NCBI GenBank assembly: GCA_002733135.1
Contig: NVUJ01000010.1
Location: 1 to 64,000 of the forward strand
Length of the DNA: 64,000 nucleotides
Reading direction: 5' to 3'
DNA from: Cycloclasticus sp.
Lineage (GTDB): Bacteria; Pseudomonadota; Gammaproteobacteria; Methylococcales; Cycloclasticaceae
Part shown: in pieces, positions 56,188 to 64,000 of the stretch
Layout of the letters: the number at the start of each line of letters is the position of its first letter
How positions within the stretch are numbered: the first letter of the stretch is position 1
The notes under the pieces: generated by a model
The model's input: the letters and a program-made list of their open reading frames with translations, nothing else
The model's database searches: none
Told to the model about the DNA's origin: nothing
Made by a program: the position numbers and the translations under genes

Positions 56188-56592
56188 GTGTACTCCATTA
56201 CTAAAAACCTAACTTTTTGCTATGGGCACCGGCTCATGAACCACCCAGGAAAGTGTAAAAACCTTCATGGTCATTCTGCTCGCGTTGCCATTACATTAGA
56301 AGCTGACAGCCTTAATACCCAAGGTATGGTTTGTGACTTTTCGGATATAAACCAATTTGCTGGAAAATGGCTTGATGACACGCTTGACCACAATATGTTG
56401 TTACATAAAGACGACCCCATATTACCCATGCTTCAACAAGCAGGTGAGCGCGTGATGGTCGTTGACAAGCACCCAACGGCTGAGTTTCTAGCCAAATTAA
56501 TTTTCGAGCACGTAAAAACAGGTGGTTTCCCCGTTACCAACGTATCCGTTTGGGAAACAGACAGCGCCAACGCGAGTTATTCAACGCCCTAA
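56188..56592 (+). CDS. queD: 6-carboxy-5,6,7,8-tetrahydropterin synthase family (QueD/PTPS)
   Basis: QueD converts dihydroneopterin triphosphate into carboxytetrahydropterin on the way to queuosine in tRNA. The 134-residue protein has the zinc histidines H14, H27 and H29, the catalytic C23 (GKCKNLHGH) and a downstream LDHNML segment. The glutamate anchoring the pterin (VWETDSA) is also present. Other PTPS-type reactions cannot be excluded, because queC/queE are not in the window. Confidence 0.88.
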   Translation: MYSITKNLTFCYGHRLMNHPGKCKNLHGHSARVAITLEADSLNTQGMVCDFSDINQFAGKWLDDTLDHNMLLHKDDPILPMLQQAGERVMVVDKHPTAEFLAKLIFEHVKTGGFPVTNVSVWETDSANASYSTP

Positions 56593-57011
56593 TGCTGAGC
56601 CAACTCAGGCCTATTAATAAATCTTTTTGCTTGCAAACCTTGTGTGAAGAAAATTTCACGCGGCTCATTCGTTTAACGCCAAACCTTGGCAGCAATAACA
56701 CCAGTGGTTCGATTATTCAAACAGAAATTCTCGACACAGGGCCCTTTACATACACACTCATATTGCGCGATAAATTAGTCCCGGGGCAAACGCCTCATAT
56801 TAATTTTAAGTGTCGTGTCTATATGGATACCAAATCTATGGAAGTTATCCAAATTGTTGGTCATTGGCAAACACCGAACTTCCACAAAACGACCCCCAAA
56901 GATATTCTCAACCGCAAATGGGAATCAAATTATTTTCTCGAAAAGTGGTTAGTGTTTCAGCTCGACATGAGTAACGTTACACAAACCAGCCAACAAGTCG
57001 CCAACGTATAA
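56592..57011 (+). CDS. DUF1249 family protein
   Basis: The 139-residue product starts in a TAATG overlap with queD at 56592 and matches DUF1249 (YqiB-type): LCEENFTRLIRLTPNL, a charged beta-rich middle (YTLILRDKLVP) and VYMDTKSMEVIQIVGHW. No function is established for the family. The longer frame from 56550 lies within queD and is less likely. The gene ends 10 nt from the convergent symporter gene. Confidence 0.8.
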   Translation: MLSQLRPINKSFCLQTLCEENFTRLIRLTPNLGSNNTSGSIIQTEILDTGPFTYTLILRDKLVPGQTPHINFKCRVYMDTKSMEVIQIVGHWQTPNFHKTTPKDILNRKWESNYFLEKWLVFQLDMSNVTQTSQQVANV

Positions 57012-57021
57012 GCTGCATTTA

Positions 57022-58356
57022 CTAATTTTTCTTCTTACTCAATTTGAAGACAATTGGGCTTAATAACAGTAAAGCGATAAGGTTAGGTATCGCCATTAAG
57101 CCATTAAGCACATCTGCCAATAGCCATAAGAACTCTAAATCCATTACTGCGCCTACTGGTATAGCCAGTACCCAAGCGATTCTATACCAGGGGATAACTT
57201 TCACTCCTAGAATATATTCTGCGCAACGCTCGCCGTAATAGCTCCAACCCAACAAAGTCGTTAGTGCAAAAATAGCCAAACCAAAACTCACTACGTATTC
57301 ACCATAGCCAGGCAAACCCATGCCGAAAGCGTGTGCAGACAACGATGCCCCCGTCTCGCCACTGGTCCAGCTACCGGTTAAAATAATCACTAAGGCCGTC
57401 ATCGTACAGACGATTATCGTGTCTATAAATGTACCCAACATAGCAATTTTACCTTGCTGAACAGGGTTGTTTGTTTTTGCCGCCGCGTGCGCGATAGGTG
57501 CAGTTCCTAGCCCCGCTTCGTTGGAAAAAACACCGCGAGCCACACCAAAACGTATCGCCGCCATAATGCCCGCACCCGCAAAACCACCCGCTGCCGCAGT
57601 GCCAGTAAACGCGTCGTTAACAATTAACATAATCGCCGTTGGCACGGAGTCTAAGCGTTGAACAATAATAATGCCCGCGCCAAGCACATAAGCTATACCC
57701 ATGAAAGGCACTAGTTTTGAAGCTACTTTACCGATACGCTTTATGCCACCCACCAACACGGCGTACACAATAACGGCCATTACTAAGCCTGTTTGCCAAG
57801 CTGGAATATTGAACGTGCTGCCGAGTGCGTCAGCCACTGAGTTGGCTTGAATCGTATTACCAATACCAAACGCCGCCACCGCACCAAACATTGAAAATGC
57901 GAATGCCAACCAACGCCAGTTATCGCCCAAACCATTTTTAATGTAATACATAGGGCCACCCACATACGCGCCATTCTCATCAACTTCCCTAAAATTAACC
58001 GCCAATACCGCCTCTGCGTATTTGGTTGCCATGCCAACAAGCGCCGTTATCCACATCCAAAAAATCGCCCCCGGGCCGCCTAAAAATATAGCCGTTGCAA
58101 CCCCAGCAATATTGCCGGTTCCAATCGTCGCGGCGAGTGATGTCATTAACGCATTAAAAGGGCTAATTTCACCGTCATCTAAATCATTACTTTTACGACC
58201 ACGCCATAACAACGAAAACGCTGTACCTAATTGTCGAATGGGCATAAATAACAAGCCAACCATCAAGTAAATACCTGTGCCTAGTAGCAGCGCTAAAATG
58301 ACTGGCCCCCAGACAAAACTACTGATTGAATTAAGCAGTTGTGTTAATGTTTCCAT
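57022..58356 (-). CDS. Sodium:alanine/glycine symporter (AGCS family)
   Basis: The 444-residue protein has about ten membrane helices and the AGCS signatures: LAATIGTGNIAGVATAIFLGGPGAIFWMW (positions 74-102), GGPMYYIKNGLG, and FSNEAGLGTAPIAHAAAKT. It should take up alanine or glycine with Na+; the exact amino acid cannot be told. It stands alone on the minus strand between the queD-DUF1249 and CDGSH genes. Confidence 0.93.
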   Translation of the reverse strand: METLTQLLNSISSFVWGPVILALLLGTGIYLMVGLLFMPIRQLGTAFSLLWRGRKSNDLDDGEISPFNALMTSLAATIGTGNIAGVATAIFLGGPGAIFWMWITALVGMATKYAEAVLAVNFREVDENGAYVGGPMYYIKNGLGDNWRWLAFAFSMFGAVAAFGIGNTIQANSVADALGSTFNIPAWQTGLVMAVIVYAVLVGGIKRIGKVASKLVPFMGIAYVLGAGIIIVQRLDSVPTAIMLIVNDAFTGTAAAGGFAGAGIMAAIRFGVARGVFSNEAGLGTAPIAHAAAKTNNPVQQGKIAMLGTFIDTIIVCTMTALVIILTGSWTSGETGASLSAHAFGMGLPGYGEYVVSFGLAIFALTTLLGWSYYGERCAEYILGVKVIPWYRIAWVLAIPVGAVMDLEFLWLLADVLNGLMAIPNLIALLLLSPIVFKLSKKKN

Positions 58357-58445
58357 ACGTTTTATTCGTCTGTAAATTGTGAAGATACCAATATTACAGC
58401 TTTACGCTTTTTAATCCTATTATTCATTTCACGAAGGTCATCCAC

Positions 58446-58670
58446 ATGTATAACAAACAATCTCCGCACGTCATTTCAGTTAAAAAAGATGAAGAAATTT
58501 ATGTTTGCCAGTGTAGAAAAACAAGCAAGGCACCCCTGTGTGATGGCAGCCATAAACAAACCGACGGCATACGCCCATTCGTGTACATCGCTAAAAAAGA
58601 CGAGGAGCTTTATGTCTGTGGCTGCGGAAAATCTAACAATATGCCGTGGTGCGACGGCAGTCATAAATAA
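58446..58670 (+). CDS. Twin CDGSH iron-sulfur protein
   Basis: This 74-residue protein consists of two CDGSH iron-sulfur domains in tandem. The first has C21, C23, C32 and H36, the second C58, C60, C69 and H73, so each can hold a 2Fe-2S cluster with 3Cys/1His ligation, as in mitoNEET. The small size, no signal peptide and no membrane anchor indicate a soluble cytoplasmic redox or cluster-transfer protein. Partner unknown. It starts a rightward series with UPF0149, DUF1853 and possibly the TraB gene, 16 nt from the next start. Confidence 0.9.
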   Translation: MYNKQSPHVISVKKDEEIYVCQCRKTSKAPLCDGSHKQTDGIRPFVYIAKKDEELYVCGCGKSNNMPWCDGSHK

Positions 58671-58686
58671 CTGATAACAACCCTAC

Positions 58687-59190
58687 ATGAACACCTTAAC
58701 CGACTATTTAAGTGCCGACTCAGTGAACGAAGACGCCATGTATTTCGACGAAATGCAGGGTTTTTTGACCAGCTTAGCGATCGTCCCCGGCAACCTTAGC
58801 CAACAACAAATACTGACAGAAATTTTAGCTACTGAGAACATTGACAAACGCCTTTCAGATGCAATTTCCCAGCTCCAAAGTGACATTGAACAATCGCTGT
58901 TAAACGGTGAGTTCCCCGATAGCAGCAATGAACAAGGTGATGAAGACTCCCTAACCTTATGGGCAGCAGGCTTTATGCAGGGCGTCTTTATGCAAGAAGA
59001 CTTATGGTTCACATCGCACCCTGAGGAAGTGGCTGAATTGACGCTACCGATACTCAGCTGCTCTGAATTGTTAGACGATGAAATGGATGACCTCAGCCAA
59101 AACGACGAGTTGATGGACGATATGGCAGAGAAAATCCCAGACTGTATTATCGACTTGTACCTATTATTCAACACACCTGATAGTGCCTAA
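58687..59190 (+). CDS. UPF0149 (YecA/YgfB) family protein
   Basis: The 167-residue acidic protein shows the family's N-terminal motif MYFDEMQGFLTSLAIVPG, the central LWAAGFMQGVFMQEDLW and a C-terminal helical part. The SEC-C zinc tail of YecA is absent, so it is nearer the YgfB type, whose Pseudomonas member is linked to ampDh3 control and beta-lactam resistance. That link is recalled and only suggestive. The following gene starts within its last codons. Confidence 0.82.
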   Translation: MNTLTDYLSADSVNEDAMYFDEMQGFLTSLAIVPGNLSQQQILTEILATENIDKRLSDAISQLQSDIEQSLLNGEFPDSSNEQGDEDSLTLWAAGFMQGVFMQEDLWFTSHPEEVAELTLPILSCSELLDDEMDDLSQNDELMDDMAEKIPDCIIDLYLLFNTPDSA

Positions 59191-60118
59191 AGCATCACCT
59201 CTAAAAAATAATACTGCCGTCAGAGACCTCGATTGGGTTTTAAATAGCCCACCCCTTCTTCAAGGAAATAAAAATCATTGCAATTGGACGAACGACATCT
59301 TCTGGCAACAAGCAACCACACAGTACGCGGATCAATTACAACAGCTTGATGCTAAGCCTAATGCATTAGGCCATCTTATCGCTGAGCAAACAGACCATCG
59401 GCTAGGGCATTATTTTGAAACGCTTTTAAACTATTGGTTTACAACAAGTAGTCGCTATGAAGTGCTGGCTCATAATCTCCAAGTACAGCACGACAAACGA
59501 ACGATTGGAGAATTTGATTTTATTCTACAAGACCACCTAACCAACAAAACTCAACATTGGGAAGTGGCGTGTAAATTTTATTTAGGCATAAACGACACCA
59601 GCCAAATTGACAACTGGTGCGGTCCCATGCTGCAAGATAAATTAGCTAATAAATATCAGAAAATGCAAACACGGCAAAGTCAGCTCTCTGAACAAGCCGC
59701 AGCACAACTTACCTTAAAAAACTTAGCCATACACGTAGACGAAAAAGTGTGCCTGATGAAAGGGCGGTTGTTCTACCCAATTTTGCAAGCTGAACGCGCA
59801 GCGCCTAGCGTTATCGCAAACAACCATTTACAAGGTTGGTGGGCGAGACTTAGCGAGTTTGCTACGCACTATAAAACATCCCCTCTTCGCTGGCGTATTC
59901 TTAATAAAAAGCAATGGCTCGCTGAACAGGTTTTCGACGGCAAAATTCAATCCTATACGAGCAACGAAGTAGTAGATGTTTTTCTATCTGAATACAATCG
60001 TCCTGTTAGCATCGCAGGCTTTAACCCAACTACAAACAACAAGGAGCTAGATCGCGGGTTTTTAGTGCCATCAGACTGGGGCCCAACCAACATCGCTCAT
60101 CAACTTTCCACCACGTAG
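59183..60118 (+). CDS. DUF1853 family protein, possible PD-(D/E)XK nuclease fold
   Basis: The 311-residue protein matches DUF1853: RDLDWVLNSPPLL at the start, LGHYFETLLNYWF, then IGEFDFIL and WEVACKFYLGI. D112 in GEFDFI followed by E127 and K131 in WEVACK is arranged like the catalytic core of PD-(D/E)XK nucleases, with the Lys shifted. Whether it cuts DNA is unknown. It begins with a GTG overlapping the UPF0149 gene by 8 nt, so the two are translationally coupled. No neighbour suggests a defence or mobile-element role. Confidence 0.82.
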   Translation: MPKASPLKNNTAVRDLDWVLNSPPLLQGNKNHCNWTNDIFWQQATTQYADQLQQLDAKPNALGHLIAEQTDHRLGHYFETLLNYWFTTSSRYEVLAHNLQVQHDKRTIGEFDFILQDHLTNKTQHWEVACKFYLGINDTSQIDNWCGPMLQDKLANKYQKMQTRQSQLSEQAAAQLTLKNLAIHVDEKVCLMKGRLFYPILQAERAAPSVIANNHLQGWWARLSEFATHYKTSPLRWRILNKKQWLAEQVFDGKIQSYTSNEVVDVFLSEYNRPVSIAGFNPTTNNKELDRGFLVPSDWGPTNIAHQLSTT

Positions 60119-60138
60119 AAGTTTTCATCAGCTTCTCC

Positions 60139-60165
60139 CTGACACTTACCCCATCTGGGTATAAT
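60139..60165 (+). promoter_or_regulatory. Possible promoter of the TraB-family gene
   Basis: A perfect TATAAT (60160-60165) lies 62 nt before the start; CTGACA (60139-60144) is 15 nt upstream, a tight spacing. Confidence 0.4.
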
Positions 60166-60227
60166 GGCTGCATAATTTCTCACTCAAGGTTTCTCATACA
60201 AACCTCTACGAATATCAAAGGTTAATT

Positions 60228-61418
60228 TTGGACACGCTAAACGAACAACCCATAGAAAAACTATCCATAAACGGTTGTAACATTACCTTATTAGGCACAG
60301 CACACGTTTCACAAGCTAGCGCAGATGCCGTTGAATTTCTATTATTAAATGAAGACTTTGACGCCACAGCGATTGAATTATGCCCAGGGCGTTACAACGC
60401 GTTAATAGACCCTGATAGTTTGTCTAAGATGGATTTATTTAGCGTGATTAAAAGCGGCAAAGCGGCGATGGTTACGGCGAGCTTAGCGTTGGGTGCATTC
60501 CAACAAAAAATGGCCGATGAACTGGGCATTGAGCCCGGCGCAGAAATGAAAAAGGCCGCCGAAATAGCGCAACAAAAAAACATACCTGTGCTGTTGATTG
60601 ATCGTGATGTTGGCACAACACTAAAACGCGTCTACCGGAATGTTCCTTGGTGGAAACGTATGGAACTATTCTCCGGCTTACTCGCCAGCGTAATGTTCTC
60701 AGAAAAAGTAAGTGAGGAAGACATAGAAAAACTAAAAGAAGGCGATATGCTAGACGCCACTTTTTCCCAGTTTGCCGAATCTTCAAAAGAAATTTACGAC
60801 CCATTAGTGAATGAACGCGATCAATACATGGCTCGACGTTTATTTGATGAGGCGCAGTCTGGCGAACATAAAAACGTATTGGCCGTCATCGGTGCAGGGC
60901 ACCTTAAAGGTATTAAAAACTACCTAGAAAACGAACTTAAAGACACTAAAACACTAGAAGAACTGGACTCCATTCCCGCCAAAAGCCGTTGGCCAAAATT
61001 GATCCCTTGGGTCATCGTTGGTTTAGTCTTTGTCGGTTTCGGCATCGGCTTTAATCGCGCGCCGGAACTCGGCTGGCAGCTCGTTATGGAATGGATTGTT
61101 ATTAATGGGGGATTGTCTGCCTTGGGTGCTTTGTTAGCCAACGCACACCCTATCACCATTATTACGGCTTTTTTAGCAGCGCCACTCACCTCGTTAAACC
61201 CAACCGTTGGTGCCGGCATGGTGACTGCCGCCGTAGAAGCATGGGTGCGTAAACCCAGAGTAGGCGACTTTTCCACTTTAAGACAAGACACCGCAAAATT
61301 AAGTGGGTGGTGGAAAAACAGGGTATCTAGAACTTTACTGGTGTTCTTTCTAAGTACCCTGGGTTCTGCAGCAGGCACTTACATCGCGGGCTTTAGGATT
61401 TATGAACAACTCAGTTAA
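60228..61418 (+). CDS. TraB/PrgY-type membrane protein
   Basis: The 396-residue protein has the TraB family domain (1 to about 245), with the conserved GTAHVS at 23-28, E50 in IELCPGRY and GAGHLKGI near 223, residues that in the Tiki/TraB/GumN superfamily resemble a metalloprotease site. Three or four membrane helices follow (about 261-395). Enterococcal TraB/PrgY proteins block peptide pheromone; the bacterial chromosomal members have no established role. The start is a TTG with AAAGG six nt upstream. It ends 10 nt from the convergent plsB. Confidence 0.85.
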   Translation: MDTLNEQPIEKLSINGCNITLLGTAHVSQASADAVEFLLLNEDFDATAIELCPGRYNALIDPDSLSKMDLFSVIKSGKAAMVTASLALGAFQQKMADELGIEPGAEMKKAAEIAQQKNIPVLLIDRDVGTTLKRVYRNVPWWKRMELFSGLLASVMFSEKVSEEDIEKLKEGDMLDATFSQFAESSKEIYDPLVNERDQYMARRLFDEAQSGEHKNVLAVIGAGHLKGIKNYLENELKDTKTLEELDSIPAKSRWPKLIPWVIVGLVFVGFGIGFNRAPELGWQLVMEWIVINGGLSALGALLANAHPITIITAFLAAPLTSLNPTVGAGMVTAAVEAWVRKPRVGDFSTLRQDTAKLSGWWKNRVSRTLLVFFLSTLGSAAGTYIAGFRIYEQLS

Positions 61419-61428
61419 ACGCCTATCG

Positions 61429-63828
61429 TTACTCAATCACTTGATGTATGTTTTTTCTAACGTGCTGGCTCATCACAAGGCCCGCGTCATCAATAATAGA
61501 CTCAAGCACGTTGCCATAGGTTAATTTACCTTTCTCACCCGGCCAAATAATGTTCTGTTCAAACAGCATTTCAATAAAGCCTTTAAATAAGGCCTTATCG
61601 AAGAATTCCGGTGAGTTCAAACCGCTTAACTCAGATAATTCTTCAGCTATTTTTCCACAACTTTTTTCTAGCTCAAAGCGCGTCAGTGCATCTTTACCGT
61701 GATGTTTAACGACCACCACCGTTAAATAAAAGCGCTCCAAACTCAATAACACACCACCAGCCATGGTGTTCAACGCGCCTTCATCAGGTTTATCTACCGT
61801 CAGTTGATCACCGTTTTGCTTCACCAAACCTTGCTCAATTAAACAGGCCATTACTTTATGTGCAACACTCGTTATTTGTCGCGTATTCCAGCACATCGAC
61901 AGCTCAGATTGCAAGAAGGGGTAGACCAATTTAAACCAGTGAGTAATTTGTTTTTGACTTAGTGATTGATTACTCAAAAAACAGCAGGCAACGAAGGATG
62001 GGAAGGCGAACAAATGAACAATGTTATTTCTAAAGTAGGTCAACAAAATAGCATCATTACCTTCAATAGAATAGACAACTCCTTGCTCATTTTCTTGGCG
62101 TTTTAATACACCAAACTCAACGCAATAATCGATAATTTCATCCGCATCTAAATCAAGGCGCGTGATATTTTTGGAATAAGGCGCAGCTTCCAGTAACGCT
62201 AAATACAACGTTAACTGCCTTTTTAAATCCGCTTGGCTTAACGATTGACCCGGCGCACCCAATAGAGCCATTGCCAATAAGCCAATGGCATTAACGTGTG
62301 TTGCCTCGTTAATACCCGACATGATTTGAGCACCCAATTTATCAACAACCGTGCTAACCAGCTCTTTATCTTCTACACAATTTTCCCGACGCCAAGTTGG
62401 GCTTTCTGACTCTATTAATTTGTCCAAATAAATAGGCGAACCAAAATTCACGTGTACTTGGCCAAAATGATCTTTCAATGCTTTAAATGAACGTAAAACG
62501 CCCATCACAGACTCAGACTTTTTAGGCTTGCCACTCAGCTCATTGACGTAGGTTTCACCTTCTACCAATTTTTCATAAGCGAAGTTAACCGGCAAAAACA
62601 CAACCGAACGCTTATGGTCTCTCATGTAGTTTCGAACACTCATCGCCAACAATCCAGGCTTGGCTTTTAGTTTGCGTCCTGTGCGGCTACGCCCGCCTTC
62701 AACAAAATATTCAACCGCTGTGCCTTTATTCGCCAAATAGCCCATGTAGGACTCAAAAACCGCACCATATAAAACATTTCCCTTGAACGTACGCCTTAAG
62801 AAAAACGCGCCACAGCGCCTAATCCACGGGCCTGCAATAGGAATATTTAAATTAATACCCGCCGCAACGTGGGGTGCAGCCAAGCCTCTTGTGAAGAGCG
62901 CGTAGGATAAAACCAAGTAATCCATATGGCTTTGATGGCTCGGCACATAAACAATTTGATGTTCTCGTGACAAACGCTCAACACGCGAGAAGTGATGCAG
63001 CACAATGCCGTCGTATAGCTTATTCCACAACCAGCCTAAAATCTTTTCTAGCACCATGGCTGCTCGAACATTTATAACCGCTGCAATCTCAAGCGCATAA
63101 GCTTTTGCTTGTTCTTCGGCTTCATGTCTAGATAGTTTATTACGGCTGACCTCTCGCTCAACAGCCTTTTGAACTAACTCTGTTTTAAGTAATTCTTCAG
63201 CGAGTTTTTTGGGTGATGGTTGATCCGGCCCAACAGTAGCCAATCTCATTCTAGCCAAATAAACTCGCAACACGCGCGTTAACTTAAGCGTTATATACGG
63301 CGTGTCCTGTTTATCCTCTAGGAGTTTGTCCAGCGAAACCGGCTCACCAAATCTCACCAAAGTGCTTCGTCCGTTAAATAGAACAGACATAAATCGAGAA
63401 AAAATATTGGATTTATAGCCTTCGTCTGAAAATAAACTACTCCAAAAACCACCTGACTTACGCGGGCCACGTCCCCATAAAATAGACACTGGAACAATAA
63501 GAATGTCCTCATCCGATGATTTAACAGCATCAATCAAGCGCGCTAAACGCTGCGGCGCGATATTTGGAGAGTGGGTTTTTAAATTATTTAAAGAAAAAAG
63601 CGCATAGGGTTCTGCATCGTCCCCTATTTCTATCCCATTCGAGGGTAACGGTAGTAAAATATCACGACATACTTGTTCTAAAACGATTTGTTTTGAGCAG
63701 GAGTCGCTAAATGTGACGTAACATACTTTTTTATTTTCAAGTCCCTTAAGCCATTCTTCGTCCCTAGGCAATACTTTAACCTTTACCCAAAAAGACAATA
63801 TCCAGCGTAATAAGAAAGAGCCCACCAT
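61429..63828 (-). CDS. plsB: Glycerol-3-phosphate 1-O-acyltransferase PlsB
   Basis: PlsB acylates glycerol-3-phosphate, the first step of phospholipid synthesis, at the inner membrane. The product is 799 residues from the ATG at 63828, the length of E. coli PlsB. Acyltransferase motifs are present: HQSHMDY (HX4D) near residue 300, GAFFLRR, FVEGGRSRTGR and VFLPVNFAYEKL. A TTG-started frame from 63861 is unlikely because it overlaps the preceding gene. It starts one nt after that gene's stop, so the two are probably co-translated. Confidence 0.96.
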   Translation of the reverse strand: MVGSFLLRWILSFWVKVKVLPRDEEWLKGLENKKVCYVTFSDSCSKQIVLEQVCRDILLPLPSNGIEIGDDAEPYALFSLNNLKTHSPNIAPQRLARLIDAVKSSDEDILIVPVSILWGRGPRKSGGFWSSLFSDEGYKSNIFSRFMSVLFNGRSTLVRFGEPVSLDKLLEDKQDTPYITLKLTRVLRVYLARMRLATVGPDQPSPKKLAEELLKTELVQKAVEREVSRNKLSRHEAEEQAKAYALEIAAVINVRAAMVLEKILGWLWNKLYDGIVLHHFSRVERLSREHQIVYVPSHQSHMDYLVLSYALFTRGLAAPHVAAGINLNIPIAGPWIRRCGAFFLRRTFKGNVLYGAVFESYMGYLANKGTAVEYFVEGGRSRTGRKLKAKPGLLAMSVRNYMRDHKRSVVFLPVNFAYEKLVEGETYVNELSGKPKKSESVMGVLRSFKALKDHFGQVHVNFGSPIYLDKLIESESPTWRRENCVEDKELVSTVVDKLGAQIMSGINEATHVNAIGLLAMALLGAPGQSLSQADLKRQLTLYLALLEAAPYSKNITRLDLDADEIIDYCVEFGVLKRQENEQGVVYSIEGNDAILLTYFRNNIVHLFAFPSFVACCFLSNQSLSQKQITHWFKLVYPFLQSELSMCWNTRQITSVAHKVMACLIEQGLVKQNGDQLTVDKPDEGALNTMAGGVLLSLERFYLTVVVVKHHGKDALTRFELEKSCGKIAEELSELSGLNSPEFFDKALFKGFIEMLFEQNIIWPGEKGKLTYGNVLESIIDDAGLVMSQHVRKNIHQVIE

Positions 63829-63829
63829 G

Positions 63830-64000
63830 TTATTGGTTCGCCTGCATGGCTGGAAAAACAACCGGTTGCGACACTAATTTTTCTACTTCGCTTGTTTGTG
63901 ACAAGCTTTCAAAGTCGAATAACTCTTTGTCCAATAACTGTGATGGCCTAATGTTTTTCAAACTATTAAATATCGTTTCAACACGGCCAGGGAAATCTCT
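63830..64000 (-). CDS. 3' end of an unrecognised gene (partial)
   Basis: An open frame enters from the right edge and ends with TAA at 63830-63832, one nt before plsB. The visible 56 residues (starting RDFPGRVETIFNSLKN, ending PAMQANQ) are soluble-looking and hydrophilic. I recognise no family from this fragment. The tight spacing indicates an operon with plsB. Confidence 0.7.
   Translation of the reverse strand, partial: RDFPGRVETIFNSLKNIRPSQLLDKELFDFESLSQTSEVEKLVSQPVVFPAMQANQ

Follow-up and report, generated by a model that had tools for sequence, protein, structure and literature searches.

Four adjacent genes on a chromosome may serve one process, or they may only share a place. This question is raised by positions 58446-61418 of a 64,000-nt stretch of the Cycloclasticus sp. 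contig NVUJ01000010.1 (positions 1 to 64,000; the whole stretch is called the window below), where four rightward ORFs encode members of the CDGSH, UPF0149, DUF1853 and TraB families. A first-pass annotation of this DNA had listed these genes and families, and had proposed that their coupling suggests a shared process. The ORF list and profile matches confirm the four genes, and all family calls exceed Pfam or NCBIfam cut-offs. The shared process finds no support: we observed synteny of the block throughout the genus, pairings that are confined to the genus apart from rare outside cases in the sampled loci, and losses of single members within the genus. With a probability of about 0.8, we consider the block to be a Cycloclasticus-specific chromosomal neighbourhood and no functional module.

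Arrangement of the block and three of its proteins

The four genes and their two flanking genes are as follows.

57022-58356, minus strand: agcS, sodium:amino-acid symporter, divergent upstream flank (TIGR00835, 501.1 bits)
58446-58670, plus strand: twin-CDGSH protein (type 6 CISD), 74 aa, predicted to bind [2Fe-2S] (PF09360, two motifs)
58687-59190, plus strand: UPF0149 protein, 167 aa, from a group apart from ygfB (PF03695, tree)
59183-60118, plus strand: DUF1853 protein, 311 aa, GTG start, candidate PD-(D/E)XK-like nuclease fold (PF08907)
60228-61418, plus strand: TraB-family protein, 396 aa, TTG start (TIGR00261, GxxH motifs, hydropathy)
61429-63861, minus strand: plsB, glycerol-3-phosphate acyltransferase, convergent downstream flank (NF003441, 831.8 bits)

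The stop codon of the CDGSH gene is separated from the ATG of the UPF0149 gene by 16 nt (58671-58686), and the end of the UPF0149 gene overlaps the GTG start of the DUF1853 gene by 8 nt (59183-59190); both spacings, as annotated before, were confirmed from sequence. A further 109 nt lie between the DUF1853 stop codon and the TTG start of traB. In their packing the first three genes resemble a short transcription unit and would probably be co-transcribed, with traB following after its longer gap. In a scan of the sequence alone, predicted sigma-70-like sites were fewer than in shuffled sequences (2 versus a mean of 5.9) and predicted terminator-like sites slightly more frequent (6 versus a mean of 3.6, sd 2.0). 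Two of the six terminator-like sites are on the plus strand, both of them inside genes.

Upstream of the CDGSH gene (window 58357-58445) we noted a TATTACAG-like motif (reverse complement CTGTAATA), which was found in all 15 genus loci that have CDGSH. Its variants in these loci were TATTACAG in 12, TATTACAC in one, TATTGCAG in one and ATTACAG, at the edge of the stretch, in one. This motif may be an extended -10 element of the divergent agcS.

The CDGSH protein matches zf-CDGSH (PF09360) over two stretches with 68.1 bits (cut-off 29.5), and both of its CxCxx[ST]xxxPxCDGSH motifs, which occupy residues 21-36 and 58-73 and are separated by 21 residues, are complete. The best match in a PDB sequence search was 3tbn_A (E 4.7e-13, residues 4-74), which we take to be MmCISD. 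Type 6 CISDs are defined by a tandem pair of CDGSH motifs spaced by about 20 residues (PMC3174974), and by its motifs the protein is of this type. Like the NEET proteins MmCISD and human Miner2, it is a short chain with two CDGSH motifs, for which cluster binding is predicted here. Such a protein would hold two [2Fe-2S] clusters and move electrons or clusters.

The TraB protein scored 101.2 bits with TraB_PrgY_gumN (cut-off 26.8) and 322.3 bits with TIGR00261 (cut-off 178.35). It also resembles the TraB/PrgY/GumN (Tiki) family, in which the GxxH pair is a metal site, by its own pair of GxxH motifs and by two hydrophobic stretches at residues 255-303, near the C-terminal third. A PDB sequence search gave no match at E <= 0.1. 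The protein is probably a membrane-anchored TraB/Tiki enzyme with a metal site at the GxxH pair.

The UPF0149 protein matches PF03695 with 93.4 bits (cut-off 25) and TIGR02292 also above its cut-off, as YgfB and YecA do, but its gene is without pepP-ubiH-type neighbours. Such neighbours belong to a second UPF0149 gene, the canonical ygfB (G000:C13:77228-77725; L176:4705-5268), which lies between zapA and 5-FTHF cyclo-ligase genes and a second pair of neighbours, genes of the pepP and ubiH types. In E. coli, too, ygfB lies beside pepP-ubiH and zapA. In a tree of 48 UPF0149 sequences, rooted at the midpoint and including only the 30 best-scoring class sequences, the 16 window-type copies grouped with six sequences from three other class families and away from the canonical ygfB of the window's genome. 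This separation, together with the ygfB position being held by the other copy, sets the window-type copies apart as a separate group; in terms of sequence and context, the window gene is not a ygfB orthologue. None of the six outside members had a partner family nearby among the 30 loci.

It had been annotated that none of the four families has a settled bacterial role, which is partly wrong for UPF0149. YgfB of Pseudomonas aeruginosa is an interaction partner of the antiterminator AlpA, and it represses the expression of ampDh3 that AlpA drives (PMC9998450); yet the window copy is no ygfB orthologue. The same paper cites a UPF0149 structure, HI0817. Our PDB sequence search with the UPF0149 protein returned no match at E <= 0.1 even so, hence such searches can overlook relatives. 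PADLOC gave a weak match of the UPF0149 protein to PDC-S12 (28 bits). This paralogue of YgfB may be a helical protein-binding regulator.

Conservation and decay inside Cycloclasticus

The genus was sampled with 18 genomes (G000-G017). Window-type UPF0149 and TraB were each found in 16 of them, and the two genomes without both are 73% and 78% complete. In all 16, UPF0149 and TraB share one locus with agcS upstream. The gene plsB adjoins the block in 14 of these loci; the G003 contig ends before any plsB, and G016 has none within 1.4 kb. The order kept in the genus is divergent agcS, then CDGSH, UPF0149, DUF1853 (where present) and TraB in the rightward direction, then convergent plsB. Since the four frames recur across the genus, they are genes and not chance ORFs.

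Proteins of the block have diverged considerably within the genus. Mean identities were 64% for CDGSH, 63% for UPF0149 and 54% for DUF1853, and the lowest pairwise identities were 51%, 52% and 45%, respectively; the first three genes remain packed despite this large divergence. Tight packing with an 8-nt overlap, an order kept genus-wide at such identities, and the presence of UPF0149 and TraB in all 16 loci could be read as a genus-specific module, whose Fe-S redox protein, regulator, nuclease and membrane enzyme would work together in a single process related to stress or iron. However, flanking genes of unrelated function are equally conserved, so that a persistent gene order within Cycloclasticus does not count as evidence that the genes share a process. 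In six named loci of the Cycloclasticus type, at least two of which (G007 and G011) also count among the 16 genus loci, agcS, plsB and DUF1249 were kept in six of six and ttcA (named by eye) in five. The nearest named relatives are Cycloclasticus bins, a bin named Piscirickettsiaceae and a Bathymodiolus symbiont. As a side observation, a queD-like gene overlaps the DUF1249 reading frame in the window (56188-57011), and these two genes are neighbours in other genus loci also.

Moreover, members of the block are lost one at a time. CDGSH is kept in 15 of the 16 loci, with only a weak trace containing a stop (E 0.003) remaining in G014. Eleven loci have a full-length DUF1853. Of the other five, G007 and G011 carry split copies, the G003 locus has none, G015 retains a 29-aa 3' remnant (E 1e-5), and G016 a similar 3' remnant, read by eye. 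At these loci (L178, L179, L180, L182 and L183: two splits, two 3' remnants and one absence), the neighbours CDGSH, UPF0149 and TraB persist where DUF1853 is gone. Minor defects of the neighbours are an early stop inside the UPF0149 match of G016, near its end, and truncation of the G003 TraB by the contig end. For a module, loss or breakage of DUF1853 in 5/16 loci and of CDGSH in 1/16, with the rest retained, would be unexpected, as would the distance of 109 nt to traB.

The splits and losses of DUF1853 might themselves be assembly errors in a block that is intact throughout the genus, and several of the genomes concerned are indeed fragmented (240 contigs in G015, 380 in G003 and 120 in G011). 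However, in G015 and G016, which are listed as 99% and 98% complete, the gene has internal deletions that leave a 3' remnant, and a single contig holds this remnant together with traB and UPF0149; such deletions are not simple base errors. We therefore regard assembly error as highly improbable.

Pairings outside the genus

Pairings in other lineages were searched with family profiles built within this analysis. A contig scan for DUF1853 yielded at least 595 relatives, and the best 80 of these were examined: six are the loci of the Cycloclasticus type named above, and 74 are others. Flanks of these named loci reached up to 7 kb, some being shortened by contig ends, and flanks of class loci were about 1.5 kb. 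At class level, the best-scoring 30 loci each were taken for UPF0149, CDGSH, TraB and twin-CDGSH, less two genus loci each for TraB and twin-CDGSH.

Among the 74 named outside loci (from the best 80 of at least 595 relatives), neither CDGSH nor TraB was found near DUF1853 within the examined flanks, and UPF0149 was found once, 3.7 kb away in a Halomonas bin. Within flanks of about 1.5 kb, no partner family was found near DUF1853 in 19 class loci outside the genus (17 genomes), near UPF0149 or near CDGSH in the 30 best-scoring class loci of each, or near TraB in the 28 outside-genus loci among its best-scoring 30; in this respect the TraB/PrgY/GumN genes elsewhere differ from the window gene. 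Twin-CDGSH had TraB nearby in one of its 28 outside loci, G273 (L244), where the two genes are convergent and about 0.8 kb apart. In total, any pair occurred in 1/135 loci of this reciprocal test. In G354 (L245), which is of the same family as G273, coordinates place TraB and twin-CDGSH 4.5 kb apart on opposite strands. Proximity of TraB and CDGSH in the family of these two genomes may be a weak local association, and no operon. Several of the outside twin-CDGSH stretches have pirin-like, glutathione-transferase-like or YceI-like neighbours (named by eye).

Conservation of the four families as neighbours, which had been suggested as a check of the shared process, thus amounts, in the loci sampled outside the genus, to one UPF0149 at a distance from DUF1853, one convergent TraB/CDGSH pair and one more distant pair. 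Taken literally, the refutation named in the first-pass annotation, that the pairings would not be conserved beyond this genome, does not apply, as the block recurs genus-wide; beyond the genus, the sampled loci gave the three cases just named. An operon conserved across lineages was accordingly rejected, as pairings are near absent from the sampled outside loci, and recurrence of the pairings in unrelated lineages was not seen in these loci with their limited flanks. A literature search found no paper pairing UPF0149 with DUF1853 or CDGSH with UPF0149. As none of the sampled loci outside the genus holds an operon of this kind, we judge a genus-specific module very unlikely; under the neighbourhood reading, each of the four proteins most likely acts alone.

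The four families also differ in frequency. Among 370 class genomes, UPF0149 occurs in 295, CDGSH in 174, TraB in 98 and DUF1853 in 19, two of the last belonging to the genus, and DUF1853 was found in none of the 43 genomes from other genera of the order. Neighbours of DUF1853 elsewhere, named by reading sequences, vary by clade, and 11 loci have a LON-domain-like gene upstream (named by eye). Separately, in 10 gammaproteobacterial MAG loci (L047, L050-L052, L054-L058 and L090), the next gene on the same strand after DUF1853 appears by eye to encode a Fur-like regulator, and eight of these loci then carry opposite-strand DUF3501-like and Fe-S oxidoreductase-like genes (also by eye).

DUF1853 as a candidate nuclease

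The DUF1853 protein matches PF08907 over its full length with 263.5 bits (cut-off 25), and its structure model has a pLDDT of 93.3. Residues E79, D112, E127, K131, K157 and Q165 are invariant in all 24 aligned sequences. In the model, a helix bearing E79 is followed by one strand with D112 and another with E127/K131, and then by a helix that carries K157 and Q165. The PD-(D/E)XK core has the order alpha-beta-beta-beta-alpha, and the order of elements in the model agrees with this core order.

Structural comparison points weakly in the same direction. In VIA-align 2, the model aligned with MGME1 (Z 5.4, rmsd 4.8, 106 residues aligned) and NucS-type 2vld (Z 5.3, rmsd 3.5, 84 residues aligned), followed by XisH, Card1, McrBC and SduA, all of them with Z under 8, the level below which the tool advises caution. 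Of the 25 rows at the top, about 23 have the PD-(D/E)XK fold. Rubisco small subunits were listed too, with Z around 3 to 3.5 and alignments that mostly fall within residues 140-300. Foldseek gave no match to the model at E <= 0.001; kinesins and PTP1B stood at the head of its list. The PDB sequence search returned an RNA polymerase chain alone (E 0.42), which we rejected as implausible.

In PD-(D/E)XK nucleases such as MGME1, NucS, McrC, Card1 and Shedu SduA, the lysine stands two residues after the glutamate (ExK), whereas in DUF1853 it stands at E+4 (ExxxK). Invariant K157 on the next helix could serve in its place. Because Z is at most 5.4 and the lysine is at E+4, we call the protein a candidate nuclease fold. 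The earlier designation as a nuclease-fold candidate is thus kept, with weak structural support from VIA-align 2 and no significant Foldseek match. In function the protein may be a metal-dependent nuclease of a PD-(D/E)XK-like type, either still active or degenerate.

Scattered occurrence (19 of 370 class genomes, and 0/43 genomes of the order outside the genus), repeated decay in the genus and a mean identity below that of the other three genes (0.54 over 10 copies) might suggest that DUF1853 is a mobile, defence-type or otherwise dispensable nuclease, which came in between UPF0149 and traB and is now being eliminated. However, no PADLOC model matches it, and its matches are rare in phage records (2/50,697) and in plasmid records (15/72,556, of which 9 are from Mycetohabitans). 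Its GC content of 0.433 is like that of the window (0.425), and in other clades it has stable contexts of other kinds. Moreover, dN/dS in the two least diverged intact pairs was 0.089/0.492 and 0.167/1.145 (about 0.15-0.18), which indicates that intact copies are under purifying selection; the TraB pairs used for comparison gave 0.015/0.399 and 0.042/0.905. A mobile, defence-type or dispensable nuclease is unlikely on these data, and the chromosomal neighbourhood remains our reading.

Most of the best 80 among at least 595 DUF1853 relatives come from gamma- and betaproteobacteria, and a few are of planctomycete, flavobacterial or other origin. In the literature searched, DUF1853 is listed as a taxonomic marker protein, and our literature and PDB searches found neither a function nor a solved structure for it. 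One may imagine DUF1853 as a chromosomal PD-(D/E)XK family in which the lysine has shifted (ExxxK) and on which purifying selection acts although the gene has been lost several times. In Cycloclasticus its translation would go in tandem with that of a UPF0149 protein of the group apart from ygfB, which possibly controls it in the way that YgfB controls AlpA. This picture is quite unlikely to hold as a whole.

For these four families, adjacency in one genus gives no basis for a shared process, and a false lead is removed. Our results also show that the UPF0149 family contains a group apart from YgfB. The remaining value lies in the DUF1853 protein, which is well folded in its model, conserved and nuclease-like in its features, with no function found, and which may be the sole part of this block that could repay bench work.
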